A stretch of DNA of 34,300 nt from Nitrospiraceae bacterium. GTDB taxonomy: Bacteria; Nitrospirota; Thermodesulfovibrionia; UBA6902. Positions within the stretch are counted from its first letter, which is position 1, and each line of letters opens with the position of its first letter. Positions 15,028-27,591 of this stretch are shown one piece after another. The position numbers and the translations under genes were made by a program. The notes under the pieces are model-generated. The model saw only the letters and a list, made by a program, of their open reading frames with translations, was not told the origin of the DNA and searched no databases. The stretch lies in assembly GCA_003599505.1 (NCBI GenBank), contig QZKO01000048.1, positions 1 to 34,300 on the forward strand. Reading direction: 5' to 3'.

Positions 15028-15930
15028 ATGTTTCTCCAGCAGATTATCAACGGTCTGACAGTCGGCGGCGTGTACGCGCTTATCGCCCTCGGCTACACGA
15101 TGGTTTACGGGATACTCGAGCTTATAAATTTCGCGCACGGCGAAATCTACATGATAGGCGCTTATCTCGGCATTATATTCCTCGGGATATTCACCACGGC
15201 GGGACTCACGCAGTACAGCCTTCCCCTTTCGCTTTTCCTGACCGTCGTCCTGTCCGTCCTGTTCTGTTCAGCCTATGGCTTTACCGTTGAGAAGCTCGCG
15301 TACAAGCCGCTCAGGAACGCGCCGAGACTCAATCCCCTGATAAGCGCGATCGGCGTCTCAATCTTTCTCCAGAATTATGTGATGCTCACGCAGGGAGCGA
15401 CCGACAAGGTATTCCCGCATGTACTGCCCGTCACGACGATTGAATTTTCCGGTATAACGATGACCTCGCTTCAAATCATCATCATCGTTGTTTCGCTGCT
15501 GCTTATGGCTGGACTTCATCTCTTTATCATGAAGACAAGGACCGGCAAGGCCATGAGGGCGGTCGCGCAGGACAAAGTAATGGCCTCGCTTCTGGGAATA
15601 GATATCGACAGGATAATTTCGGTAACGTTTATTATAGGCTCAGGACTTGCCGCCGTCGCCGGATTGATGGTGGCCATGTATTACGGCCTCGTGAATTACT
15701 CGATCGGGTATATAGCGGGCATAAAGGCCTTCACGGCAGCCGTGCTCGGAGGAATCGGGAGCGTCCCGGGGGCGATGATCGGAGGTTTTGTGCTCGGGCT
15801 TATCGAGAGCCTCGGCGCGGGTTATTTGTCGAGCGAATACAAGGACGCTTATGCCTTTATTGTGCTTATACTTATTCTCATGGTGAAACCGACCGGTCTG
15901 CTCGGCAAATCGGAAGGTCACAAGCCGTGA
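15028..15930 (+). CDS. livH: Branched-chain amino acid-type ABC transporter permease LivH
   Basis: Inner-membrane permease of 300 residues with about eight hydrophobic segments. The start FLQQIINGLTVGGVYALIAL, GYTMVYGILELINFAHGE and the later RAVAQDKVMASLLGIDID cytoplasmic loop (EAA-like) are characteristic of LivH. No ribosome site is visible before the ATG. It ends in a GTGA overlap with livM. Confidence 0.94.
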   Translation: MFLQQIINGLTVGGVYALIALGYTMVYGILELINFAHGEIYMIGAYLGIIFLGIFTTAGLTQYSLPLSLFLTVVLSVLFCSAYGFTVEKLAYKPLRNAPRLNPLISAIGVSIFLQNYVMLTQGATDKVFPHVLPVTTIEFSGITMTSLQIIIIVVSLLLMAGLHLFIMKTRTGKAMRAVAQDKVMASLLGIDIDRIISVTFIIGSGLAAVAGLMVAMYYGLVNYSIGYIAGIKAFTAAVLGGIGSVPGAMIGGFVLGLIESLGAGYLSSEYKDAYAFIVLILILMVKPTGLLGKSEGHKP

Positions 15931-17003
15931 CAAAGCTCCTCTTCATGCTTTGGTGCGCTCTCCTGTCCATGCCCTTTATGGGGATAAAAGGCGGCGCGTA
16001 CCTGTTTGTCGGGTTATGCGTCACCTATTCCGTTTTTATTCTTTTAACGCATACCTTCGGCAAGATAAGGAAACCGGTCATCCCGGCCAATACAACATTA
16101 TTGACGGTATTGTTAATAATCCCGGCTGTCGCTTTCCCTCTTCTGGCTGGGGACTACTATACCGATGTAGCGGTCCTCGCCGGGATATATATCATTCTCG
16201 CGCTCGGCGTTAATGTAGTGATAGGGTTCAGCGGACTTTTGCACCTCGGTTTCGCGGCATTTTACGGTCTCGGCGCGTATTCCAACGCCCTGCTTACGAC
16301 TGTCTTCGGACTCGGTTTCTGGAGCGCCCTCCCCTTGACCCTGGTTTTAACTTCCATCGCGGGATTTCTCCTTGCTTTTCCGGCGTTGAGGCTCAGGGGA
16401 GACTATCTGGCTATCGTCACCCTCGGTTTTGGAGAAATAATCCGTCTCGTGCTGAATAACTGGGACAGCGTGACGCGCGGGCCTAACGGGATATCGAACA
16501 TTCCCGCTCCTTTTATAGCGGGTTTTGAACTGGGCGGATTGATTTTTTATTATTACCTTGTTTCAGGTTTTGTGTTTATTGCCGCGTTTGTTGTGAAGCG
16601 GGTCCACCGTTCAAGGACCGGGAGGGCCTGGCTCGCGATCCGTGAAGATGAAACCGCGGCGGAGGCCATGGGGATCAATACGAGGAAATACAAGTTTATG
16701 GCACTGTCTTTCGGGGCGTTCTGGGCAGGGCTTGCGGGCGCCCTGTTTGCGAGCAAGATGCACTTTGTTTCACCGGAGAGCTTCACGTTCATGGAGTCGG
16801 TTTTTATAGTCTGTATGATTATTTTAGGCGGCATCGCAAGTGTCCCGGGCGTAATTTTCGGATCGCTGATACTCGTTTTCCTTCCGGAGGTGCTGAGGGA
16901 GTTCCAGTTATACAGGATGCTGGCGCTTGGCGCCGGTCTTGTTTTGATGATGATCTTCAGGCCTGAGGGGTTAGTGAAGAAGGGATACAAACATGATTCT
17001 TGA
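15927..17003 (+). CDS. livM: Branched-chain amino acid-type ABC transporter permease LivM
   Basis: Second permease, 358 residues, starting at GTG in a 4-nt overlap with livH. LGVNVVIGFSGLLHLGFAAFYGLGAY and LAIVTLGFGEIIRLVLNNWDSVTRGPNGI are LivM hallmarks, and the cytoplasmic loop AIREDETAAEAMGIN contacts the ATPases. It has about ten membrane segments, including an N-terminal extra pair. The livG start overlaps its last 11 bases. Confidence 0.94.
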   Translation: MTKLLFMLWCALLSMPFMGIKGGAYLFVGLCVTYSVFILLTHTFGKIRKPVIPANTTLLTVLLIIPAVAFPLLAGDYYTDVAVLAGIYIILALGVNVVIGFSGLLHLGFAAFYGLGAYSNALLTTVFGLGFWSALPLTLVLTSIAGFLLAFPALRLRGDYLAIVTLGFGEIIRLVLNNWDSVTRGPNGISNIPAPFIAGFELGGLIFYYYLVSGFVFIAAFVVKRVHRSRTGRAWLAIREDETAAEAMGINTRKYKFMALSFGAFWAGLAGALFASKMHFVSPESFTFMESVFIVCMIILGGIASVPGVIFGSLILVFLPEVLREFQLYRMLALGAGLVLMMIFRPEGLVKKGYKHDS

Positions 17004-17757
17004 AGTCAGGGATTTAACAAAGACCTTCGGAGGCCTCAAGGCAATTGAGGAAGTAAGCTTCAGGGTCAGACATGGAATAATTCTCAGCATCATAGGACCT
17101 AACGGCGCTGGAAAGACCACGTTGTTCAACTGTCTTACAGGCATACTCCCTCCGACAAAGGGGCGGATACTTTTTGAAAATGAGGACATCTCGAAAAAGA
17201 AGGCGTACGAGATCAGCGCGGGCGGCATTGCAAGGACCTTTCAGAATATCAGGGTGTTCGGTTCAATGAGCGTCCTTGAAAATGTCATGATCGGGCAGCA
17301 CAGCAGGTCCAGGGAGGGATTATTTACCGCGATATTAGGCACAGGCAGGTTTATCAGGGAAGAGGATGAGATAAGATCAAAGGCCCTTGAGTATCTTGAA
17401 TTTGCGGGCATCAGGGACTACGCGGACACCCTTGCGGAGAACCTCCCGTATGGAGACAGGAAGAGGCTCGAGATCGCGCGCGCCCTTGCCGCTGAGCCCA
17501 GGCTTCTTCTGCTTGATGAACCGGCAGCGGGCATGAACCCGCAGGAGACGCTGGAATTAATGGACCTTATAAACAGGATCAGGGAATGGGGAAAGACAGT
17601 AATAATAATTGAGCACGACATGAAAGTTGTTATGGGCATATCGGACTGGATTATCGTCCTTGATCACGGCGTGAAGATCGCCGAAGGGACGCCTGGAGAG
17701 ATACAGAATAACCCTTATGTGATAGAGGCGTACCTGGGGAAAGAGGAGGTTTTTTAG
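16993..17757 (+). CDS. livG: Branched-chain amino acid-type ABC transporter ATPase LivG
   Basis: Cytoplasmic ATPase of the importer, 254 residues. Walker A is GPNGAGKTT (35-43), the signature region reads LPYGDRKRLEIARAL as usual for LivG, and Walker B is LLLLDEPAAGMNP followed by the IIIEHDM switch. AGAAGGGA precedes the ATG. The TAG stop at 17755-17757 shares its G with the first base of a 29-bp palindrome. Confidence 0.95.
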   Translation: MILEVRDLTKTFGGLKAIEEVSFRVRHGIILSIIGPNGAGKTTLFNCLTGILPPTKGRILFENEDISKKKAYEISAGGIARTFQNIRVFGSMSVLENVMIGQHSRSREGLFTAILGTGRFIREEDEIRSKALEYLEFAGIRDYADTLAENLPYGDRKRLEIARALAAEPRLLLLDEPAAGMNPQETLELMDLINRIREWGKTVIIIEHDMKVVMGISDWIIVLDHGVKIAEGTPGEIQNNPYVIEAYLGKEEVF

Positions 17758-17785
17758 TAGGGGCGGGTTTCAAACCCGCCCCTAC
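17757..17785. repeat. Perfect 29-bp inverted repeat between livG and livF
   Basis: GTAGGGGCGGGTTT, a central C, then AAACCCGCCCCTAC: 14-bp perfect arms with a one-base centre. It begins inside the livG stop codon and ends 13 bases before the livF GTG. Its ends match the other GYAGGG/CCCTRC palindromes. Confidence 0.9.
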
Positions 17786-17798
17786 ATAAGAGAACACT

Positions 17799-18587
17799 GT
17801 GCTCAAACTCGAAAATATTCATACATCGTACGGACACATTGAGGCTGTCAGGGGGACAAACCTTGAAATCAGAAAAGGAGAGATCGTCTCTCTTATAGGG
17901 AGCAACGGCGCCGGCAAGAGCACGACCCTGATGACGATATCCGGAATACTCAGGCCCGTAAAAGGGAAAGTCATTTTTGAAGGCAGGGAGATCCAGGGAT
18001 TATCACCCCATAAAATTGTCTCCATGGGCGTATCGCAGGTCCCGGAAGGGAGGAGGATTTTCCCGAAACTTACAGTCAGGGAGAATCTTGAAATGGGAGC
18101 GTATTTAAAAGGCAAAGGGCAAAGGGCAAAGGGCAAAGGGTCAGGGGTCAAGGGGCAAGAAGCAAGAGGCAAGGGGGAAGACACGAGCAGGGGCGATTCA
18201 CGAATCGCTCTTGCGGAACAACTTGACCATATTTTCAATCTTTTCCCTGTCCTCAAAGAGCGTCAGAAACAGCTTGGCGGGACCCTGAGCGGCGGAGAAC
18301 AGCAGATGCTTGCAATCGGAAGGGCGCTTATGTCAGGACCGGAGCTTCTTTTGCTTGACGAGCCTTCTCTCGGGCTTGCGCCGATTATCGTCATCAAGAT
18401 TTTTAAAACCATCAGGGAGCTCAACGCTGGAGGTTTGACTATCCTCCTTGTCGAACAGAACGCGAAGGCCGCCCTGAGATTGGCTCACAGGGGATACGTA
18501 ATTGAATCCGGCAGGGTCACCAGGGAAGGCATCGGTAAAGAACTTCTCGACGATCCCGCTATAAAAAGGGCGTATTTAGGGGAGTAA
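17799..18587 (+). CDS. livF: Branched-chain amino acid-type ABC transporter ATPase LivF, with repeat-encoded insert
   Basis: Second ATPase of the importer. Walker A GSNGAGKST (34-42), Q-loop region VPEGRRIFPKLTVRENL, signature LSGGEQQMLAIGRALM, Walker B LLLLDEPSLGLAP and LLVEQNA are intact. At 262 residues it is roughly 25 longer than usual because residues about 105-139, between GAYL and LDHIFNLFP, are encoded by eleven heptamers plus a palindrome (KGKGQRAKGKGSGVKGQEAR and so on). The insert lies in the helical subdomain, in a region where homologues vary in length, so activity is likely retained. It starts at GTG with only a weak AAGAGA upstream, so its translation may depend on livG. Confidence 0.94.
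   Translation: MLKLENIHTSYGHIEAVRGTNLEIRKGEIVSLIGSNGAGKSTTLMTISGILRPVKGKVIFEGREIQGLSPHKIVSMGVSQVPEGRRIFPKLTVRENLEMGAYLKGKGQRAKGKGSGVKGQEARGKGEDTSRGDSRIALAEQLDHIFNLFPVLKERQKQLGGTLSGGEQQMLAIGRALMSGPELLLLDEPSLGLAPIIVIKIFKTIRELNAGGLTILLVEQNAKAALRLAHRGYVIESGRVTREGIGKELLDDPAIKRAYLGE
18111..18187 (+). repeat. Eleven-unit heptad repeat inside livF
   Basis: GGCAAAG four times, then GGTCAGG, GGTCAAG, GGGCAAG, AAGCAAG, AGGCAAG, GGGGAAG and ACACGAG: 77 bases in unbroken 7-nt register. It runs straight into the palindrome that starts at 18187. Confidence 0.88.
18187..18214. repeat. Palindromic element inside livF coding sequence
   Basis: GCAGGGGCGATTCA followed by CGAATCGCTCTTGC matches the perfect palindrome at 1600-1627 at 25 of 28 bases. 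It is translated as part of SRGDSRIALA. Confidence 0.85.
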
Positions 18588-18600
18588 ACCCCTGCAAGCT

Positions 18601-18630
18601 CTGACACCTTCCTTTTTTTAAGTGTATAAT
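18601..18630 (+). promoter_or_regulatory. Sigma70-type promoter for the binding protein-kinase pair
   Basis: CTGACA (five of six to TTGACA) at 18601-18606, an 18-nt spacer and a perfect TATAAT at 18625-18630. The leader of about 100 nt contains an ACCACAGAG-type heptad stretch (18639-18667). Confidence 0.65.
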
Positions 18631-18638
18631 AAACTGGA

Positions 18639-18667
18639 AACCACAGAGCCGCTGAGACACGGAGGAA
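18639..18667 (+). repeat. Degenerate ACCACAG/GAGACAC heptad stretch
   Basis: ACCACAG, AGCCGCT, GAGACAC and GGAGGAA run in a loose 7-nt register and resemble the stretch at 12189. It lies in the leader of the PstS-like gene. Confidence 0.5.
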
Positions 18668-18731
18668 GACATAAAAAATCCGAAGGTTCAAAACCTTGCC
18701 TGTTTGAACATGAAGGACGTGAGTTAGCAGC

Positions 18732-19550
18732 ATGAAATATATTTTTCTGATTATATTCCTGTCGGTATCCTGCCTTGTTTCTGTTTGTCCCCTGCGCGCC
18801 GAGCCCCTTGCGGGAAGCGGTTGCTCCGTGAGCAATACCGGTTATCTTGCCGAACTTGCAATAGAATACGAAAGACTGACAGGGGTAGAGGTGTTTGTCA
18901 AAGGCGGCGGGAGCGTGACAGGCATTGATGACCTCCGGTCAGGCAGGGTTGATTTCGCGGCGTCGTGCATGGACATAATGAAAGACAACCCGTTCAATAT
19001 CAGGTCCGTGCAGGTCGCGTGGGACGCGCTTGTGTTTATCGTCCATAAATCAAACCCTGTTGAGTCCCTCCCGATAAATAAAATAAGATCAATATACAGC
19101 GGAGAGATAAAAAACTGGAAACAGTTTAAAGGGGACAACGCGGTCATAACGGTCTTTATGTCCCAATCCCGTAAAGGCCTGAGCGGGGTTGATTCTTCAA
19201 CAAGAGAACTTGTATTGCAGGGCAGGGAACCCGGTATCGCGGGAAACATCGTCCCTCTCGCTTCTTCAGGCATAGTGGAGCAGATGGTTGAAAAGACCCC
19301 GGGGGGGTTCGCGGCAACCGGATTCTCAAGCGCGAGAAAGCGGGACGTGAAGATGCTGAAAATAGACGGCGTTAAACCGACCAAAGAAAATATAACAGCG
19401 GGGCGATATCCTTTCAGGAGACCCCTCTTTATTTTATTGCCTGAAAAGCCGAAAAAAGAAGTAGAGAAATTTGTAGGCTATGCTTTAAGCGCGGAAGGAC
19501 AGAAATTCATAAGTTCGCTCGGGGCTATTTCATTGACGGATATGGAATAG
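18732..19550 (+). CDS. PstS-like periplasmic substrate-binding protein
   Basis: A 272-residue secreted protein with a signal peptide (about 1-23, ending PLRA). The type II periplasmic binding fold of the PstS group is suggested by GSGCSVSNTGYLAELAIEYE, VKGGGSVTGIDDLRSGRVDFAASC, the VFIVHKSNPVESL strand and IYSGEIKNWKQF. No pst permease genes are near. A histidine kinase gene starts 21 nt downstream, so this protein may supply a ligand signal to that kinase rather than feed a transporter. The ligand could be phosphate or another oxyanion; I cannot tell. No clear ribosome site is visible. Confidence 0.82.
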   Translation: MKYIFLIIFLSVSCLVSVCPLRAEPLAGSGCSVSNTGYLAELAIEYERLTGVEVFVKGGGSVTGIDDLRSGRVDFAASCMDIMKDNPFNIRSVQVAWDALVFIVHKSNPVESLPINKIRSIYSGEIKNWKQFKGDNAVITVFMSQSRKGLSGVDSSTRELVLQGREPGIAGNIVPLASSGIVEQMVEKTPGGFAATGFSSARKRDVKMLKIDGVKPTKENITAGRYPFRRPLFILLPEKPKKEVEKFVGYALSAEGQKFISSLGAISLTDME

Positions 19551-19570
19551 ACATCCGGATAAATAATATT

Positions 19571-21784
19571 TTGAAGATATCCCTGCATCTGAAAATATTA
19601 ATACCTTTATCGCTGGTTATAATCTCAATCAGCTCTGTCAGTACATACTTTTTTGTGAACTCGCACAGACAGAGCATTGAAAAGCAGTTGATCGCCAGGG
19701 GAGGCGCCTTAAGCTATGCTATGTCCAAGGCCGCGGCCGAGGGAATAGCGAGGGAAGACCTTGACCTTATCAGAAAGGCGCAGCATATCATTAACGCGGA
19801 GGACGTCACCCTGGTCCAGGTTTACACAAACCTCTGGGACATGGTCGACTCATATCCTTTCAGCAGGTTCAGGAATCCGCCTGATTCCGACGCCATCGAC
19901 CACTTCAGGGAAAGCGATTTCCCCTTTTTCAGGGAATTCAAGGAAAACTACGATTTTTACGAGCCGATAACCTTCGCGCCGTTTACCGGTTCTCCTTCCG
20001 CAACGATAGGGTTCGTAAGGATATCACTGTCCACGTCGGGCATGAACAGGGAGATCAGGAAGTCCCTGTCCGCCCATATCACCGCATCGGTTATTACCGC
20101 TGTTATCTCCATAGCGGTCCTCAGTTTTCTCATAACGCGCATTATTACAAGACGCATCGGGGACCTCCGGAAAAACATATTGCTGTTCAGGGACGGCACG
20201 GCGGCAGGGGCCTTCAGGCCTGACCCATCCCGGTTTGCCGGAGATGAAATAGGCGATGTGTTCGCTGAGTTCGGACGGATGAGCAGGGATATCACGGAGA
20301 AGGAAGGCAGGCTGATAGAGTCAAAAGAGAAAACCGACGCCCTCTTTGACAGGGTAGAGCACGCGATCTTCAGGACCGACGACGAGGGCAGGATTATCGA
20401 GACCAACAAGAAATTCCGTGAGATGTTCGGAAGCGTTGAGAGGATCTGCGTCATAATGGAGGATGTGGATTGTATTATCAGGGCCTTTTTTGAGAAAAAG
20501 ATCAGCATGGAAAAAAAGGTCAAAGGGAAAGACGGCAGCGAATTCTTTATAGCGCTTTCTCTATACGCCGGTACGGACCGGGCAGGCAACGTCACGGGTT
20601 TTGACGGATATATCATGGACATGACACAGCAGAAAAGGCTTGAGGAAATCCTCTTGCACCGCCAGAAGATGGAAGCCGTCGGGACCCTGGCAGGCGGGGT
20701 GGCGCATGACTTTAATAATATCCTCACGGCGATAATCGGCTACGGGAACCTGCTGCTTATGAAAATGGGCAGGGAAGATCATCTGAAACATTACATAGAG
20801 CAGATATTGTCCGTTTCAAACAAGGCCGCGAACCTTACCAGGAACCTGCTCGCGTTCAGCAGGAAACAGGTCATTAATCCCAGGCCTGTGGACCTGAACA
20901 TGATTGTTAAAAACCTCGAAAATCTTCTCGCGAGGCTTATAGGCGAAGATATTGAGCTGAGGATAAGACTCACGGATGAAAATCTTGTGTTGACCGCGGA
21001 CTCATCGCAGATAGAGCAGGTATTGATGAACCTGGCGACCAACGCGAGGGACGCGATGCCCGGAGGCGGCACGCTTACAATAGAGACAGTCCCGGTTGTG
21101 ATAACCGGAGCGAACTGCAATATCTATGACCTGGAAGACCCCGGCGCTTACGCGATGATATCCGTGTCGGACAGCGGGACCGGGATGGATGAAATGACCA
21201 GGGAAAAAATCTTTGAACCGTTTTTCACCACAAAAGAGACGGGCAAGGGCACCGGGCTGGGTCTTTCCATCATTTACGGGATAATAAGGCAGCACAAAGG
21301 CAACATCAGCGTGTACAGCGAGCCGGGCAGGGGCACCACCTTTAAGATATACCTGCCGTTGAAGACCTCCGGGGCGCTGGAAACACAGACCGAGGACTTG
21401 TCTGAAATAAAGGGTGGAACAGAAACAATCCTCCTTGCCGAGGATGACGCCGCCGTAAGAAACACTGTCAGGGAAATGCTCGAGAGGTCCGGATACGACA
21501 TAATTGAAGCGCGGGACGGCGAAGAAGCTTCAAGGGTTTTTAAGGAGAATGCCGGCAGGATCAGGCTTGTCATTCTGGATGTGATCATGCCTAAAAAGAA
21601 CGGGAGAGAGGCGTACAGGGAAATAAGAGAACTGGCCCCGCATGTCAAGGCTGTTTTTATGAGCGGATATACCGATGACATAATTCACAGAAAAGGCATG
21701 ATTGAAGAGGGCCTTGAATACCTTCAGAAACCTTTCACGCCTGAGGCCCTGTTGAGGAAAGTCAGAGAGGCGCTGGATTCCTGA
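19571..21784 (+). CDS. Hybrid sensor histidine kinase with C-terminal receiver domain
   Basis: A 737-residue membrane kinase. TM1 (about 7-29), a periplasmic sensor of about 140 residues and TM2 (about 176-198) are followed by a HAMP-like segment, a PAS domain (about 255-360), HisKA with the phosphoacceptor His379 in [18 protein letters not shown], the HATPase boxes [14 protein letters not shown] and DSGTGMD...[19 protein letters not shown], and a receiver (about 615-737) with Asp670 in [10 protein letters not shown]. There is no DNA-binding output. The TTG start at 19571 is needed to include TM1; no ribosome site is evident. It is probably co-transcribed with the PstS-like gene, within the liv locus. 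Confidence 0.9.
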
Positions 21785-21785
21785 A

Positions 21786-21820
21786 ACCGTTTGAACCGCG
21801 GCGGTCCCAACGGTGTTTCT
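21786..21820 (+). terminator. Possible nested hairpin after the kinase gene
   Basis: ACCGTT (21786-21791) pairs with AACGGT (21809-21814), and ACCG with CGGT inside it, followed by GTTTCTT. The tail is only weakly T-rich. Confidence 0.35.
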
Positions 21821-21848
21821 TGTAAGCAATTTCTTTTTCTGCTAAAAT
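21820..21848 (+). promoter_or_regulatory. Promoter for the Liv binding protein
   Basis: TTGTAA, a 17-nt spacer and TAAAAT lie 30 bases before the start codon. GGAGG stands six bases upstream of the ATG at 21879. Confidence 0.55.
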
Positions 21849-21878
21849 TCCTGAAACTTACGGATCAGGGAGGAAGAG

Positions 21879-22988
21879 ATGACCAGAAAATTTCTATTAT
21901 TGCTGTTTGCGATTATTGTTTTATCCGGATGCGTGAACAAAGAAGACCTGACAATCAGGGTCGCCATCGCGGGTCCTATGACCGGCGACCAGGCGAAGAT
22001 GGGGATGGATTTCAGAAACGGCGTGACCCTTGCGGTGGATGAATGGAACGCAAGAGGCGGGGTCCTGGGGAAAAAGATAGAGCTTATCATCGGTGATGAC
22101 CAGAGGGACCCCAAACAGGCCGTCTCGGTTGCGAATAAATTCGTTACGCAGGGAGTAAAGGGCGTGATAGGGCATTTCAATTCAAGTTGTTCCATCCCGG
22201 CTTCGGATGTATATAACCGCGCCGGCATTCCCATGATAACCCCGGCGTCCACGAACCCGGAGCTCACTGAAAAAGGTTATCCCGGAGTTTTCAGGGTGTG
22301 CGGAAGGGACGACCAGCAGGGTAAGGTGGCCGCCGATTTCGTGATCACGCAGTTGAAACTGAAAAAGATAGCCGTCATTCACGACAAGACCACGTACGGG
22401 CAGGGGCTTGCCGGTGAGTTTAAAAAGTTCGTCGGCGACAAGGCTGAAATCGTTTACTACAGCGGCATCGTCCAGGGAGACAAGGATTTCAAGACCGTGC
22501 TTATATCCATCAGGGAGAAGAAGCCGGAGCTGATATTTTTCGGAGGGATATATCCCGAGGGCGGCCTGCTGGTTAAGCAGGCCCGGGAGGTCGGCATGAC
22601 CGTCCCGTTCATGAGCGGCGACGGGGTCATCGATCCCAAATTTGTGGAGATAGCGGGCGCTGAGCCGGCAGAGGGCACTTATCTGACTTTCAGTCCTGAT
22701 CCGAACTCCATCCCCACTGCGAAGGCATTTATTGAGCAGTACACGGAAAAATTCGGCGAGCTCGGTCCTTATTCCATTTACGCCTATGATGCCGCGAACA
22801 TAATGCTTAAGGCTATTGAGGCCGCGGGGACGACGGAAGGGAAGACTGTCATGGACAGGCTTCATTCAATGGAATTCAGCGGCGCCCTGGGCAGCATAAA
22901 GTTCGACGGGAAAGGCGACGTGACTGTCGCGCCCTATGTCATATGGGTCACAACGGGCGGCAAGTTTGTGGAATACTGGAAGCCGTAA
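21879..22988 (+). CDS. livK: Branched-chain amino acid-type ABC transporter substrate-binding lipoprotein
   Basis: A 369-residue type I periplasmic binding protein. The lipobox LSGC puts the lipidated cysteine at residue 18. IRVAIAGPMTGDQAKMGMDFRNGVTLAVDEWNARGGVLGKK (family N-domain, read in parts) and GVIGHFNSSCSIPASDVYNRAGIPMITPASTNPEL are typical Leu/Ile/Val-binding features. It most likely delivers substrate to LivHMGF encoded upstream, despite the 3-kb interruption, and has its own promoter. Ligand identity is not certain; the family also binds aromatic acids and amides. Confidence 0.93.
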   Translation: MTRKFLLLLFAIIVLSGCVNKEDLTIRVAIAGPMTGDQAKMGMDFRNGVTLAVDEWNARGGVLGKKIELIIGDDQRDPKQAVSVANKFVTQGVKGVIGHFNSSCSIPASDVYNRAGIPMITPASTNPELTEKGYPGVFRVCGRDDQQGKVAADFVITQLKLKKIAVIHDKTTYGQGLAGEFKKFVGDKAEIVYYSGIVQGDKDFKTVLISIREKKPELIFFGGIYPEGGLLVKQAREVGMTVPFMSGDGVIDPKFVEIAGAEPAEGTYLTFSPDPNSIPTAKAFIEQYTEKFGELGPYSIYAYDAANIMLKAIEAAGTTEGKTVMDRLHSMEFSGALGSIKFDGKGDVTVAPYVIWVTTGGKFVEYWKP

Positions 22989-23009: not shown

Positions 23010-23747
23010 ATGGTAAGAGTAAAGATAATCTTCCTCGTTATTGCCTCCTTCCTTATCTTTGCCTTCTCGCGGTATCCTTCCGTTGAAAGCGCGCACCCCG
23101 CCGATACGGAAAAGACAAGAGAGCAAAGACAATCAATGGTCCGGGAGCAGCTCGCGGCGCGGGGGATAAGAGACGAACGGGTCCTTGCCGCGATGTCGAA
23201 GGTCCCAAGACACCTGTTTGTTGAAGACTCGTTGCGAAGAAAAGCCTACGGCGACCACCCTCTTCCGATAGGCGAGGGGCAGACCATTTCACAGCCTTAT
23301 GTGGTTGCGCTCATGACAGAGGCGTTGAAACTTAAGCCTTCCGACAGGGTGCTTGAAATCGGCACAGGCTCCGGATATCAGGCGGCGGTCCTTGCGGAGA
23401 TGGTTAAGGAAGTTTATACAATTGAGATAAGAGAGCGGCTGAAGACCACAGCCGCCGGACTGCTCGGCGCTCTCGGCTATAAAAACATTAAAACAAAATA
23501 CGCGGACGGTTATTTCGGCTGGGAAGAATACGGGCCGTTTGACGCGGTAATCATAACCGCGTCCGCAAACCACATACCGCCGCCGCTTATGAAGCAATTG
23601 AAAGAAGGCGGCAGGCTTATCATCCCCCTCGGAAGCACGCTTTATTACCAGACATTGACCCTTATTACGAAAAAAGGGAAAGGACCTGAAGTCGAACAGA
23701 TGGGCGGCGTTGCCTTTGTGCCCATGACCGGAGAGGCGCGTAAATGA
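23010..23747 (+). CDS. pcm: Protein-L-isoaspartate O-methyltransferase with N-terminal signal peptide
   Basis: Methylates the free alpha-carboxyl of isoaspartyl residues using SAM, starting their repair. The PIMT core is complete: [47 protein letters not shown] motif [11 protein letters not shown] (114-123), VYTIEI and [24 protein letters not shown]. Unusually, residues 1-28 form a basic start, a hydrophobic stretch ([14 protein letters not shown]) and a cleavable-looking SVESA, which predicts export or membrane anchoring. SAM supply outside the cytoplasm would be a problem, so anchoring on the inner face is possible. AGAGG seven bases upstream supports the ATG. It overlaps the protease gene by 4 nt. 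Confidence 0.92.
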
Positions 23748-24256
23748 AGAAAAAGAACTTCAATCCTGCCGGCCCTGCCTTTTTGCTGCTGTTTGCCTCC
23801 TTCCTCCTTTTTTCCACAGAAGCGTCCGGGTCCCCGGAAAAGATAACAGTCGGCGAGGTCGAAGAAGTTATGCTGCTTCCATGGGGCGTAAGGCTCCCCG
23901 CGCGTATTGATACCGGGGCCGCGGTATCGTCTCTCGACGCGCGGCGCCTCCGGGTGAAGCAGGGGGTAGCGGAGTTCAGGTTGCCGGAGAAATACGGAGG
24001 ACTTTTTTTGAGGCTGCCTGTAAAGGAATGGCGCAATATAAAGACGGCCCGGGCTACGGAGCGCAGACCCGTCGTAACAGTAAAGCTCTGTCTGGGGCCC
24101 ATCGTCCTGGACACTGATGTCACATTAACCGACCGTTCAAAAGTCAAATATCCCGTGCTTATCGGCAGAAATGTCCTGAAGGACAATTTTGTCGTGGACT
24201 GCGCGGAATATATGTGCGCCGTCCCGAACTGCCCGATACCTCCATCTCAAAAGTAA
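23744..24256 (+). CDS. Secreted retropepsin-like (RimK-associated, PF05618-type) protease
   Basis: A 170-residue protein of the family annotated as putative ATP-dependent zinc protease, now seen as retropepsin-like. A signal peptide covers about 1-30. The single catalytic motif is [13 protein letters not shown] with D56-T57-G58, followed by RRPVVTVKL and a second conserved VLIGRNVL. Such enzymes work as homodimers. The C-terminus has three cysteines spaced C-x4-C-x4-C, possibly disulfide bonded in the periplasm. The start is in an ATGA overlap with pcm, so the two are translationally coupled. The gene family is genomically tied to RimK-like ligases, and one lies 2.5 kb downstream. Confidence 0.85.
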
Positions 24257-24283
24257 CAGCAATATCCCGCCGCATAATTTTTT

Positions 24284-24312
24284 TTGAAACCGGGTGGGAA
24301 CTCTGATAGAAT
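24284..24312 (+). promoter_or_regulatory. Sigma70-type promoter for the barrel gene
   Basis: TTGAAA at 24284-24289, a 17-nt spacer and TAGAAT at 24307-24312. The short leader contains an inverted repeat GACCGG/CCGGTC (24319-24335) that ends four bases before the ATG. Confidence 0.65.
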
Positions 24313-24339
24313 CTGATTGACCGGGAAAACCGGTCTAAT

Positions 24340-25515
24340 ATGAAACTCCTGAATATCTTTTACGCTGCGCCTGTTGTTTTTGTCGTCCTGTACGGGGACG
24401 TCTCCGCCTTTGAAAGAGAATATTCCATCAACGCGGAGACAGGAATAGGATACGACAGCAACGCCTTTCTCGCGCCCGGCAAGGACTACTTCGACCCCGT
24501 AGAGAACGGGACCATCAGGCCGGAAAGGCGACCGGGCTTCTTCATTCCCTTCTCTCTCGAAGGGGAATACGGCATAGGGTCAACGCGCGCAAAACTTGTT
24601 TCGGAGCTGGAGATGAGCAGGAGATTTTATCCGGGCCCACGCCTCAACAGCGCCGATACCTACAGCACCGGGCTTACAACGGGACTGGAATATCTTATGG
24701 GGAAGGAAGGTGTTTACAGAGACCGCGTATTTATCGGCCCCGCCGTTTTCTACAACAAGGAGACCTATGTCGACAGGGACACCGGAGAGGAGCGCAGGAC
24801 GGTAACGACAAGCGAGAGCCTGGCCGAAAGATTCACTTATTACGGATACGGCCTCAAGGCTTATCTCAGGGTGAGGACCACGCCGGTGAGATTTGCCGTC
24901 AGGGCTGATGTAAAGGAATATGATTACCGCGAGGTCCCGGTATTCTCATCGCTCGATTATCTGTACTACCGCGCGGGCGGCGGGGTCGAATTCGATATCT
25001 CTGAAAGCACATTGCTGGAATTGGATTATGACTACTACGCCCGTGATTTCCGGGACCGGGAATCACGCGATTTGCAGGGGGACCTTGCAGAAGGGACAGA
25101 CCGGAAATACGCTTACAACGAGGCCGGGATTTCTTTGAGGCAGGAGGTCGGGAGGTCCTGGAGAATATATTTTGACTCTTCGCGCCTCAGCAGGGATGAC
25201 AGGTTTGCCGGATATTATGATTATGTCCGCGACCGGTTCGGCGTCCGCGTCCGCTATGATGACCGGGAGGGGCTGAAGGTGAAGGCCGACGCTGCCTGGT
25301 GGGAGAGAGATTATCCCAATGCCTTTGCCTTTGATGACCCTGCCTTTCCACGGAAGTTTGACAAGGCGTGGGAGGGGAAGGCGGGGGTTGAGATGACGAC
25401 GTCAAAGACGTGGAAGTTCTGGTCTGAATATGAATATACGGACAGGGACTCAACAGACCCGAGATACGATTACAGGCGTCACCAGATATCCGCCGGAATA
25501 GGCGTGACGCTCTGA
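24340..25515 (+). CDS. Predicted outer-membrane beta-barrel protein of unknown function
   Basis: A 391-residue protein with a signal peptide (about 1-23, ending DVSA). The rest is a series of alternating hydrophobic and aromatic strands rich in Tyr, Asp and Arg (for example YSINAETGIGYDSNAFL, STLLELDYDYYARDF, WKFWSEYEYTDRDS) and ends SAGIGVTL, the type of aliphatic C-terminal strand used by barrel proteins. It resembles surface barrels annotated as outer membrane beta-barrel protein. I recognise no specific family. It lies between two retropepsin-like genes, so it may be the outer-membrane component of that system. There is no clear ribosome site; a small stem precedes the ATG. Confidence 0.75.
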   Translation: MKLLNIFYAAPVVFVVLYGDVSAFEREYSINAETGIGYDSNAFLAPGKDYFDPVENGTIRPERRPGFFIPFSLEGEYGIGSTRAKLVSELEMSRRFYPGPRLNSADTYSTGLTTGLEYLMGKEGVYRDRVFIGPAVFYNKETYVDRDTGEERRTVTTSESLAERFTYYGYGLKAYLRVRTTPVRFAVRADVKEYDYREVPVFSSLDYLYYRAGGGVEFDISESTLLELDYDYYARDFRDRESRDLQGDLAEGTDRKYAYNEAGISLRQEVGRSWRIYFDSSRLSRDDRFAGYYDYVRDRFGVRVRYDDREGLKVKADAAWWERDYPNAFAFDDPAFPRKFDKAWEGKAGVEMTTSKTWKFWSEYEYTDRDSTDPRYDYRRHQISAGIGVTL

Positions 25516-25532
25516 AGAGTCAGCCGCTGATT

Positions 25533-25624
25533 TGCGCGGATTGACGCGGATTTCTTTGAGGAGTCACAAGAAGTGAGTTGCTTTTATTCTATCCGTGGCT
25601 ATCTGTGTTCATCTGTGGCTATTA
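25533..25624. repeat. Period-10 repeats flanking a short spacer between the barrel and 7TM genes
   Basis: GATTTGCGCG, GATTGACGCG and GATTT on the left, and ATCCGTGGCT, ATCTGTGTTC and ATCTGTGGCT on the right, run in 10-nt register. The right array reversed (AGCCACAGAT) resembles the left in type. This fills the gap of about 130 bp. Confidence 0.65.
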
Positions 25625-25646
25625 ATTTTTATAGGTTAAAAGAAGA

Positions 25647-26735
25647 ATGAGAATGCACATCGGCCCGGTGGTTTTTATTGTCCTGACAGGAATCGCATTG
25701 TGGTCCCTGTTTCCGTCAGCGCCTGCGGCAGCGCAGGCACAAGTTATCGGCAGTCGCGAAAGGGTCAAAGTAATAGGGCCCGCCGGGACAGTTGAGGCAA
25801 TCGCCAGGATTGACACGGGAGCGGCATCATCGTCCATAGACGACGACTTTGCGAGCAGGATCGGCCTGAAGGTCGACCCTTTCAGAGAGCGTATCGTTAT
25901 AAGCGCTGCGGGCAGACACAGGCGTCCCGTAGTCGATATTACCGTTGTAATAGGGGGACGCACTATCTCGTCGACAGCGACAGTTGCGGAGAGGGGCACG
26001 CTTTCTACGGACATCCTTATCGGGAGGCGCGATCTCGGGGGCTTTACAATCGATCCCGCGAGGGAATTCCTTGCCGAGCCCGGAGAGGCGCGACAGCCTT
26101 CGTTAGTCTCCCGTTATTTAAGGGATGTGTTTAATGAGCCGGGAAGCAGGGAAATCGCGGTCTTTCCTGTAATGGCGTCGGCTATAGTGGTCCTGAGACT
26201 GATAGCCGGAGTGGCGACATTCGGGATCTTCGCGCCGACTGTCATAGCCTTCTCGCTTATAGAACTGGATATTCTTCAGGGCGCGCTCATTTACCTGTTT
26301 CTCGTTATCACCGGCATGGCGGTCAAACATATTGTTCTCAGGAGATTCAGGCTCCCGCACATCGCCGAGCTTTCGTTGATAATGTTTCTGCTTGTAATCT
26401 TGCTCATGGGGATCTCCGCGTTTCTGAGTGATGTTTCTCCCTCTTTTTCAAAGGTCTTTTTCCCTCTTATCATCACATCGTTTCTTATCGAACACGCCAC
26501 GAGGGCCGTTGAAGAGCACCGGGTCAGGGAGGCGGTACTGCTTCTCTTTTCGACCATTGCTACCGCGGTCCTCCTGGGTCTTGCCGGAAGGTTACTGGTT
26601 GTTCAGTCGTACGCAGTCATATCGGTTTCCTTCGTACTGGCTTTTATAACGGCGCTTATAGCGGGGAGATACCGGGGACTGCGCCTGACTGAACTGTTCC
26701 GTTTTCGTCTGCTGAGGCAGGGCCGTGGGCATTAA
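25647..26735 (+). CDS. Retropepsin-like protease domain fused to a 7TM (transglutaminase-associated) domain
   Basis: A 362-residue fusion. A signal peptide or anchor (about 1-30) is followed by a retropepsin-like domain (about 33-150) with [13 protein letters not shown] (D56-T57-G58, the same numbering as the upstream protease) and ILIGRRDL. Residues about 165-345 form seven membrane helices beginning AVFPVMASAIVVLRLIAGVATFGIFAPTVIAF (read in parts), matching the 7TM domain usually fused to an inactive transglutaminase (PF14402). Here the protease replaces the transglutaminase. The protease domain should face the periplasm. It overlaps the RimK-like gene by 11 nt, which indicates a tight functional link. 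Confidence 0.83.
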   Translation: MRMHIGPVVFIVLTGIALWSLFPSAPAAAQAQVIGSRERVKVIGPAGTVEAIARIDTGAASSSIDDDFASRIGLKVDPFRERIVISAAGRHRRPVVDITVVIGGRTISSTATVAERGTLSTDILIGRRDLGGFTIDPAREFLAEPGEARQPSLVSRYLRDVFNEPGSREIAVFPVMASAIVVLRLIAGVATFGIFAPTVIAFSLIELDILQGALIYLFLVITGMAVKHIVLRRFRLPHIAELSLIMFLLVILLMGISAFLSDVSPSFSKVFFPLIITSFLIEHATRAVEEHRVREAVLLLFSTIATAVLLGLAGRLLVVQSYAVISVSFVLAFITALIAGRYRGLRLTELFRFRLLRQGRGH

Positions 26736-27591
26736 CACATTTATGTTCCGCGAGCGGCCTCTCGGAATGAACCTGAGGAACTACCTGATCAGGGACCTGA
26801 ACCCTGAAGACGCTGTTGCGCGCGCCAGGGACAAAGCGCAATTCAAGCGCGTTCTCCGGGAGAACGGCATCCCCGCGCCCCTTACTTTATATGAAATATC
26901 GGACTACTCCGATATCGCGCGTCTCAGGACGCTTCCCGGGGAGTTCGTCATCAAGCCGAACCATGGAATGGGCGGCAACGGCATCCTCGTGGTCAAAAGA
27001 GAAGACGACGTGTTCATCAGCCCCGCGAACGAGCGATACACGCTTGAAGATGTCAGGGGGCATCTCAGGAAGATCGTGAACGGAGAATTTTCAGATAATA
27101 TCGAACGGGACCAGGCCCTGATAGAAGAGAGGATATATCCTTCCCCGGATCTTGTTTTCAGGTACGCGGCGGGCCTGCCGGATATCAGGGTCTTCTGTTT
27201 CCGCTCTGTTCCGGTGATGGCCATGGTCCGGTATTCCACGGAAATATCCAGGGGAAGGGCCAACCTCTCCCAGGGCGCGGTGGGCATGGGTCTCGATATG
27301 ATGACCGGCGGGATAACTCATATCCATGCAAAAAAGGAGACGGAGGATTATACTCCTGATTTTTTCGGCATCCCGGCGGACTTCCGGGTCCCCCGATGGG
27401 AAGAAATCAGGACGGTCGCCTCGGAAACGGCCCGGGTTTCAGGACTGAGCGTGGCGGGTGTGGACGTTGTCCTTAATTCGGCAGGACAGATTATGGTGCT
27501 TGAGGTCAACGGGCATCCGGGGATCGAGATCCAGAATATCAATGAGCGGTCTCTCCTTGAGGCGCTTCAGGGCGTTCATTATATCCTGTAA
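26725..27591 (+). CDS. RimK-related alpha-L-glutamate ligase-like ATP-grasp protein
   Basis: A 288-residue cytosolic ATP-grasp ligase of the TIGR02291 type found beside 7TM-transglutaminase genes. FVIKPNHGMGGNGILVV (75-90) is the ATP-binding lysine and glycine-rich loop, RVFCFRSVPVMAMVRY follows, and VLEVNGHPGIEIQN (Glu260, Asn262) is the metal site. The family is predicted to join an amino acid, often glutamate, to a peptide or small acceptor; the substrate is unknown. It starts at GTG inside the end of the 7TM gene. Its last 13 bases overlap the convergent GDT1-family gene. Confidence 0.88.
   Translation: MGINTFMFRERPLGMNLRNYLIRDLNPEDAVARARDKAQFKRVLRENGIPAPLTLYEISDYSDIARLRTLPGEFVIKPNHGMGGNGILVVKREDDVFISPANERYTLEDVRGHLRKIVNGEFSDNIERDQALIEERIYPSPDLVFRYAAGLPDIRVFCFRSVPVMAMVRYSTEISRGRANLSQGAVGMGLDMMTGGITHIHAKKETEDYTPDFFGIPADFRVPRWEEIRTVASETARVSGLSVAGVDVVLNSAGQIMVLEVNGHPGIEIQNINERSLLEALQGVHYIL

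Follow-up and report, generated by a model that had tools for sequence, protein, structure and literature searches.

The 34,300-nucleotide stretch analyzed here (the window; contig QZKO01000048.1 of a Nitrospiraceae bacterium) carries a four-gene cassette on its plus strand at 23744–27591. This cassette is a variant form of RloABC from Pseudomonas: its membrane protein carries a retropepsin where RloB has a transglutaminase domain. An earlier note on this DNA had placed five adjacent plus-strand genes here: pcm, retropepsin, barrel, fusion, and ligase. We confirm all five at its coordinates. The trio of protease, seven-transmembrane (7TM) protein, and ligase that the note had proposed is a real set, of the RloABC kind (PMC12239564).

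The first cassette gene (gene 2 of the five; 23744–24256) encodes a secreted, RloA-like retropepsin with a signal-like N-terminus, a PF05618 match (2e-22), and the residues R54, D56 (within a DTGA motif), R108, and R131. It is followed by an outer-membrane β-barrel of 16 predicted strands (24340–25515), also with a signal-like N-terminus, whose AlphaFold2 model (predicted local distance difference test score, pLDDT, 89.3) yields porin-like Foldseek matches. The third gene (25647–26735; model pLDDT 90.5) encodes a fusion of a retropepsin domain (25737–26090; residues 31–148, with R54, D56, R93, and R116; PF05618) and an RloB-like 7TM region (26145–26666). The PF14402 match of the latter spans residues 168–356 at 79.9 bits (cut-off 25), with DSSP helices between residues 167 and 340. 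The inactive transglutaminase domain (PF14400) was not found on the fusion, which has the retropepsin domain instead. The last gene (26725–27591) encodes a RimK-like, RloC-like ATP-grasp ligase (PF14397, 3e-45; TIGR02291, 1.1e-51) that starts at GTG 26725 or ATG 26743. Both retropepsins have hydrophobic N-termini, and the ligase N-terminus has no hydrophobic stretch.

The protein of gene 2 matches the RloA crystal structures 9g58 and 9g59, as well as 2pma, and its R108 and R131 align to arginines 23 residues apart in 9g58. These correspond to R114 and R137 of Pseudomonas aeruginosa RloA, likewise 23 apart, whose loss hits cutting hardest and whose alanine variants (R114A and R137A) give no rescue in vivo; in vitro, RloA itself cuts stretches of 8 or 10 glutamates (PMC12239564). 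The equivalents of RloA K46, R114, and R137 are R54, R108, and R131 in gene 2 and R54, R93, and R116 in the fusion, with D56 as the catalytic aspartate in both. Among 52 stand-alone relatives of the gene 2 retropepsin from two phyla, the aspartate and R108 are kept in every one, R131 in 51, and a lysine or arginine two positions ahead of the aspartate in 51. R93 and R116 are invariant across 13 fusion proteins, and DTGA is invariant in the 12 fusion homologues; the fusion was seen at 9 of 74 loci (one split by a frameshift), a set that may overlap with those 12. The residues retained in both retropepsin domains thus point, at the level of sequence, to a polyglutamate substrate. RimK with RimB yields free poly-α-glutamate of up to 28–36 units (PMC11957791), and polyglutamate chains on tubulin are shortened by animal enzymes of the MATCAP/TMCP family (PMC10499314).

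Retropepsins are also fused to the ligase, in proteins P0028 and P0031 and at many Patescibacteria loci. One scanned protein (L048:8936–11770) combines an ATP-grasp ligase, a retropepsin, and a MATCAP domain beside a bare 7TM gene; its ligase groups with Parcubacteria on the ligase tree.

Barrel, ligase, and cutter across related loci

We find that the barrel is a real partner of the 7TM–ligase set. The 7TM family is present in 19 of 395 Nitrospirota genomes, and the barrel in nine of them. All six genomes with a clear barrel, the window's included, also have a 7TM gene (Fisher, 5e-9); one of the six (G029) is counted on a 71-residue barrel piece at a contig edge (E 1e-6), and there the gene run breaks off at the ends of two contigs (L116 and L204), which carry its 7TM gene and the barrel piece. 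At four Nitrospirota loci (L114, L115, L117, and L118) the barrel lies 3' of the 7TM gene within ~5 kb. Among 299 Pseudomonadota genomes, 48 have a 7TM gene and five a clear barrel, all five belonging to the 48 (Fisher, 9e-5). Barrel and 7TM gene share a contig at L223, L224, L226, and L227, and in genome G519 the gene run is spread over two contigs, L225 (TPR piece and barrel) and L298 (transglutaminase-7TM, ligase, and TPR piece; TPR, tetratricopeptide repeat). Over both phyla, barrel and 7TM gene are therefore linked within ~5 kb on one contig in eight cases and across two broken contigs in two, plus the window. The link between the barrel and the trio, which the earlier note had drawn from this genome, extends beyond it, so that the refuting condition set in the note does not apply to the barrel.

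Weaker barrel matches are not linked to a 7TM gene: three in Nitrospirota (E 3e-4 to 7e-4) are in genomes without a 7TM gene, and three in Pseudomonadota (E 5e-6 to 3e-5) are in genomes with one, on other contigs. The barrel was found in none of 13 genomes behind other loci, with a query that did match in Pseudomonadota.

The gene order is alike in both phyla: transglutaminase-7TM, ligase, a TPR protein with an N-terminal hydrophobic stretch, and barrel. Work on the cassette exposed this run, of which we found no description in open-licence papers. The barrel family comprises 50 listed database proteins, the window's own included, of which 11 carry TPR repeats (P0188, P0190–P0198, and P0201); the window's barrel is 34–35% identical to those of G041 and G139, and the homologues P0153–P0165 stand at 45–52% identity. 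We also looked for a specific exporter fold and rejected one: the top Foldseek matches are general porins, mostly at a root-mean-square deviation of at least 9 Å, allowing no assignment beyond porin-like with 16 strands. Three of the Pseudomonadota runs have a PepSY_TM-like membrane gene beside them, below the Pfam cut-off (L223:4016–4573, L226:4011–4568, and L224:4207–4980). In one screen, PepSY and inactive-transglutaminase mutants were both vesicle over-producers (PMC12096838).

A midpoint-rooted ligase tree of 85 rows, keeping every third Pseudomonadota RloABC-type locus, places the RloABC-type ligases (35 rows) and the TPR-barrel ligases (10 rows) in one clade each (both 100/99). The window's ligase falls outside both, although its barrel belongs to the TPR-barrel family. 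It groups with L009–L011 at 100/100, and with all nine retropepsin-7TM loci, L299, and L300 at 98/91. The barrel and the 7TM–ligase set thus stand together on at least two separated branches, through either two recruitments or old inheritance, between which a midpoint root cannot decide.

The nine other retropepsin-7TM loci of this branch come from Chloroflexota, Thermomicrobiota, Actinomycetota, and Moraniibacteriota, phyla regarded as single-membraned. No barrel of this family was seen at any of the nine, nor in the whole genomes behind L009, L010, L011, and L015, the flanks at L009, L012, L013, and L014 being too short to exclude one. The members of the branch from outer-membrane phyla (the window, L299, and L300) have a barrel or barrel-like gene adjoining in three of three, as would be needed for a product that leaves the cell. 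No transglutaminase is present at L299 or L300; a barrel-like gene, called by the look of the sequence and sub-threshold Pfam matches, precedes a bare 7TM gene and then the ligase. At L300 these three frames overlap, and at L299 a retropepsin and a weak ligase match lie ~2 kb upstream. Compared with the window's barrel family, both barrel-like proteins score only 7.0–7.5 bits with filters off, and they would belong to another or a very divergent family.

The cutting enzyme differs between arrangements. At TPR-barrel loci, the Cys-His-Asp triad of the transglutaminase is intact in nine of nine (10 of 10 with L298), and no retropepsin was found within 4.5 kb (L116 offers only 3.8 kb in all). At RloABC-type loci, the triad is gone in 19 of 19, of which seven had been found via a retropepsin pattern rather than chosen blindly, and a retropepsin lies upstream in 13 of 13 from Nitrospirota, including L102 with its split 7TM gene. 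The same exclusion was predicted for Pseudomonadota ahead of the survey result, at a point when only one of the five triad-intact loci there was still to be found and the other four were known. There, 39 of 40 triad-less loci have a retropepsin directly upstream (L279 has none), and the five triad-intact loci have no retropepsin (0/5) and a TPR gene in every case (5/5). Retropepsin and intact triad never occurred together at the surveyed loci, as expected if both do one job. Because each arrangement is a single clade on the ligase tree, this exclusivity represents one evolutionary split kept since.

A putative route for a glutamate chain

The reading to which we assign a probability of roughly 0.5 has four steps. 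In the cytosol, the ligase probably builds an acidic chain of glutamates, which the 7TM part would then carry through the inner membrane; on the periplasmic side, the two retropepsins, fused and free, would cut the emerging chain; and the barrel would let the cut chain out of the cell. In systems without a linked barrel, such as RloABC, the cut pieces would remain periplasmic. We infer that the product is poly-α-glutamate, free or carrier-bound, that the 7TM part is its export path, and that the barrel passes it. In the fusion, the cutting domain is part of the membrane protein itself, and from the linkage of the barrel one would predict that the product leaves the cell.

What has been reported for Pseudomonas can be fitted to this route. 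The Rlo system there governs survival in salt-free medium, biofilm, and tolerance of cell-wall drugs, with the roles of RloB and RloC and the Rlo substrate not yet established (PMC12239564). P. aeruginosa without all three RloA proteases does not grow in salt-free medium; sucrose partly helps, and loss of rloB or rloC fully rescues the triple mutant there (PMC12239564). With no linked barrel at RloABC-type loci, an uncut polyanion in the periplasm would draw water and swell that compartment in dilute medium. This would explain the growth failure upon RloA loss, the help from sucrose, and the rescue by rloB or rloC loss. In another bacterium, disruption of an inactive transglutaminase-7TM gene led to more vesicles (PMC12096838). 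That rise shows an envelope role for the protein. The bacterium of the vesicle screen is reportedly a Shewanella.

If true, this route gives a testable job to a recently named stress-tolerance system of undefined product. A wider proposal is that these loci encode an envelope-spanning apparatus that both builds and secretes non-ribosomal poly-α-glutamate: an ATP-grasp counterpart of synthase-dependent exopolysaccharide export, with a swappable periplasmic cutter, either retropepsin or transglutaminase, on a 7TM platform and a dedicated barrel where there is an outer membrane. We offer it tentatively, with the odds somewhat against it.

Several points weigh against the proposed route. The ligase reaches 175.7 bits with TIGR02291, under the cut-off of 314.2. 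No PDB entry matches the 7TM part in sequence, and the Foldseek and VIA rows shown for the fusion are filled by its retropepsin domain, with no convincing 7TM fold match among them. Homology to PgsC/CapC (PF14102), a resemblance noted by eye, was not supported by hhalign, which compared profiles A4 (48 rows) and A3 (31 rows) and gave a probability of 0.9% over 19 columns, although a missing match does not disprove kinship. We accordingly infer, from the arrangement as a whole, that the 7TM part transports. The barrel resembles a general 16-strand porin, and the survey by 7TM showed no linked barrel of this family at 53 RloABC-type loci (13 Nitrospirota and 40 Pseudomonadota). The TPR protein that accompanies this family elsewhere has no gene in the window's cassette. 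The short flanks at four retropepsin-7TM loci and the manner in which the barrel-like genes of L299 and L300 were called also count here, as does the fact that the cutter exclusivity rests on two clades, so that Fisher values overstate it.

Some 7TM proteins (L018:4831–6429, L034:3377–4960, and L062:2583–4082) carry neither transglutaminase nor retropepsin; their membrane part is preceded by a PKD domain.

Of the competing explanations, the one that fares best would have the ligase tail a carrier with glutamate (a protein of the envelope or one that is secreted, or else a peptide attached to lipid or peptidoglycan), which the retropepsins trim; the 7TM part would present the carrier, and the barrel would be its exit or target. 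The known target of RimK is a protein tail (PMC11957791), glutamylated proteins are among the options raised by the Rlo authors (PMC12239564), and PF14397 is named as sugar-transfer associated. However, no recurrent carrier gene was seen by eye at the listed loci, although one may be encoded elsewhere, and we regard this explanation as unlikely, if worth keeping in view. A 7TM part that acts as sensor or regulator, together with a barrel that is a plain porin, would instead serve osmotic and cell-wall homeostasis without an exported product. This fits the absence of any recognised transporter relative for the 7TM part, the generic barrel fold, and Rlo phenotypes that are osmotic and morphological (PMC12239564). 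Yet it leaves unexplained both the run of barrel and TPR genes and the barrel's appearance with the outer membrane in the window's ligase branch, and is in our judgment rather improbable.

It is very unlikely that the ligase decorates a polysaccharide or some other polymer, with export of this product as in alginate or cellulose secretion. A TPR protein with a 16-strand barrel does recall synthase-dependent exopolysaccharide secretion, and TPR-barrel proteins exist within the barrel family. However, inspection of the TPR-barrel runs by eye showed no glycosyltransferase gene within them, their neighbours not being family-scanned, and the retropepsin residues fit polyglutamate. The weakest explanation, an isopeptide system of the envelope whose ligase makes β-linked sites for recognition by an exported Pcm, was that of the earlier note; it drew on the exported type of the Pcm and the ATGA coupling of pcm to gene 2, and the survey below leaves it with hardly any probability.

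The pcm gene and other neighbours

The exported-type pcm gene (23010–23747, plus strand) is a neighbour outside the system and is kept in relatives without the cassette. We searched 37 genomes of the family, of which 34 gave Pcm matches, and, leaving aside the window's own gene, took the surroundings of the 18 best matches (L186–L203). All 18 proteins are hydrophobic near the N-terminus, with a best 13-residue mean between 2.1 and 3.1 (two shorter Pcm paralogues score 0.6 and 0.8). On these 18 stretches, pcm was in no case accompanied by any of the four cassette genes that could be found, and other window genes are present on 16 of them. In a congener (L193), the order is a branched-chain amino-acid binding protein, pcm, ~1 kb of unrelated sequence, GDT1, and a 577-residue glycogen-synthase-like gene (by eye); in L203, pcm lies directly against such a 577-residue gene (named by eye). 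The region behind pcm, where the cassette sits, is thus variable.

In the other direction, a survey of 140 loci centred on genes of the system (111 with a 7TM gene; flanks of ~1 to 10 kb) turned up no Pcm. With pcm kept where the cassette is missing, and system loci free of Pcm, the ATGA overlap is most simply read as a junction formed at the cassette's arrival. On these counts (18/18 and 0/140) Pcm fails the co-occurrence test set in the earlier note, and we reject it as a system member, and with it the exported Pcm in an envelope system that the note had inferred. The β- or γ-linked isopeptide product proposed there is not supported either: with Pcm set aside, nothing else was found pointing to it, and the arginines together with published work on RloA, RimB, and RimK point to α-linked polyglutamate.

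The exported-type protein is the only full-length Pcm found in the window's 95%-complete genome (G000), and many relatives carry a second, shorter Pcm without the N-terminal stretch. Outside the cytosol, such a methyltransferase would need a supply of S-adenosylmethionine.

Upstream, positions 15028–22988 hold branched-chain amino-acid ATP-binding cassette (ABC) transporter-like genes (by eye), broken up by a PstS-like binding protein (18732–19550) and a hybrid histidine kinase (19571–21784), both named by eye; the binding protein at 21879–22988 within this run was named by family match. Elsewhere, a strong gene 2 homologue (L073:5177–5734; 1.5e-57) sits behind a similar transporter-like cluster, as the window's cassette does, with no 7TM, barrel, or ligase gene within its 15.7-kb stretch. 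The intergenic segment 25516–25640, before the fusion gene, resembles an extragenic repetitive element (by eye). Recent transfer could not be judged by composition, as guanine-plus-cytosine content (0.54–0.56 for the cassette versus 0.50–0.54 for four neighbours) is not telling.

Relation to known systems

The closest known system is RloABC, which shares with the cassette a secreted retropepsin whose residues for catalysis and polyglutamate binding are the same, a PF14402 7TM protein, and an ATP-grasp ligase. The cassette differs in having a second retropepsin for the transglutaminase domain of RloB, a barrel gene, and a ligase outside the RloABC-type clade. It is not filed as RloABC itself because the inactive transglutaminase is absent. 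RimB–RimK, including the hybrid RimBK, likewise combines a retropepsin with a RimK-family ligase, and poly-α-glutamate is made and cut there (PMC11957791). Those proteins are cytosolic and have no 7TM partner, whereas the cassette's retropepsins have hydrophobic N-termini and one is fused to a 7TM part; they give the only two PF05618 matches in this genome.

The TPR-barrel runs (L114–L118, L223–L227, and L298) have the same barrel, 7TM, and ligase families as the cassette, with an intact Cys-His-Asp transglutaminase for the retropepsin and an extra TPR protein. The poly-γ-glutamate synthase PgsBC/CapBC also pairs an amide ligase with a small membrane protein and makes an acidic polyamino acid. 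However, its ligase belongs to a different, Mur-like family, and profile comparison detected no homology between PgsC and the 7TM part. PgsB-PgsC-like genes occur in two other Nitrospirota (L213 and L214; 2 of 148 genomes). Finally, a periplasmic TPR scaffold with a 16–18-strand barrel is the arrangement of synthase-dependent exopolysaccharide secretion (AlgK/AlgE, PgaA, and BcsC); the cassette's barrel has 16 predicted strands but no TPR gene beside it, and the TPR gene is found in the cassette's relatives.

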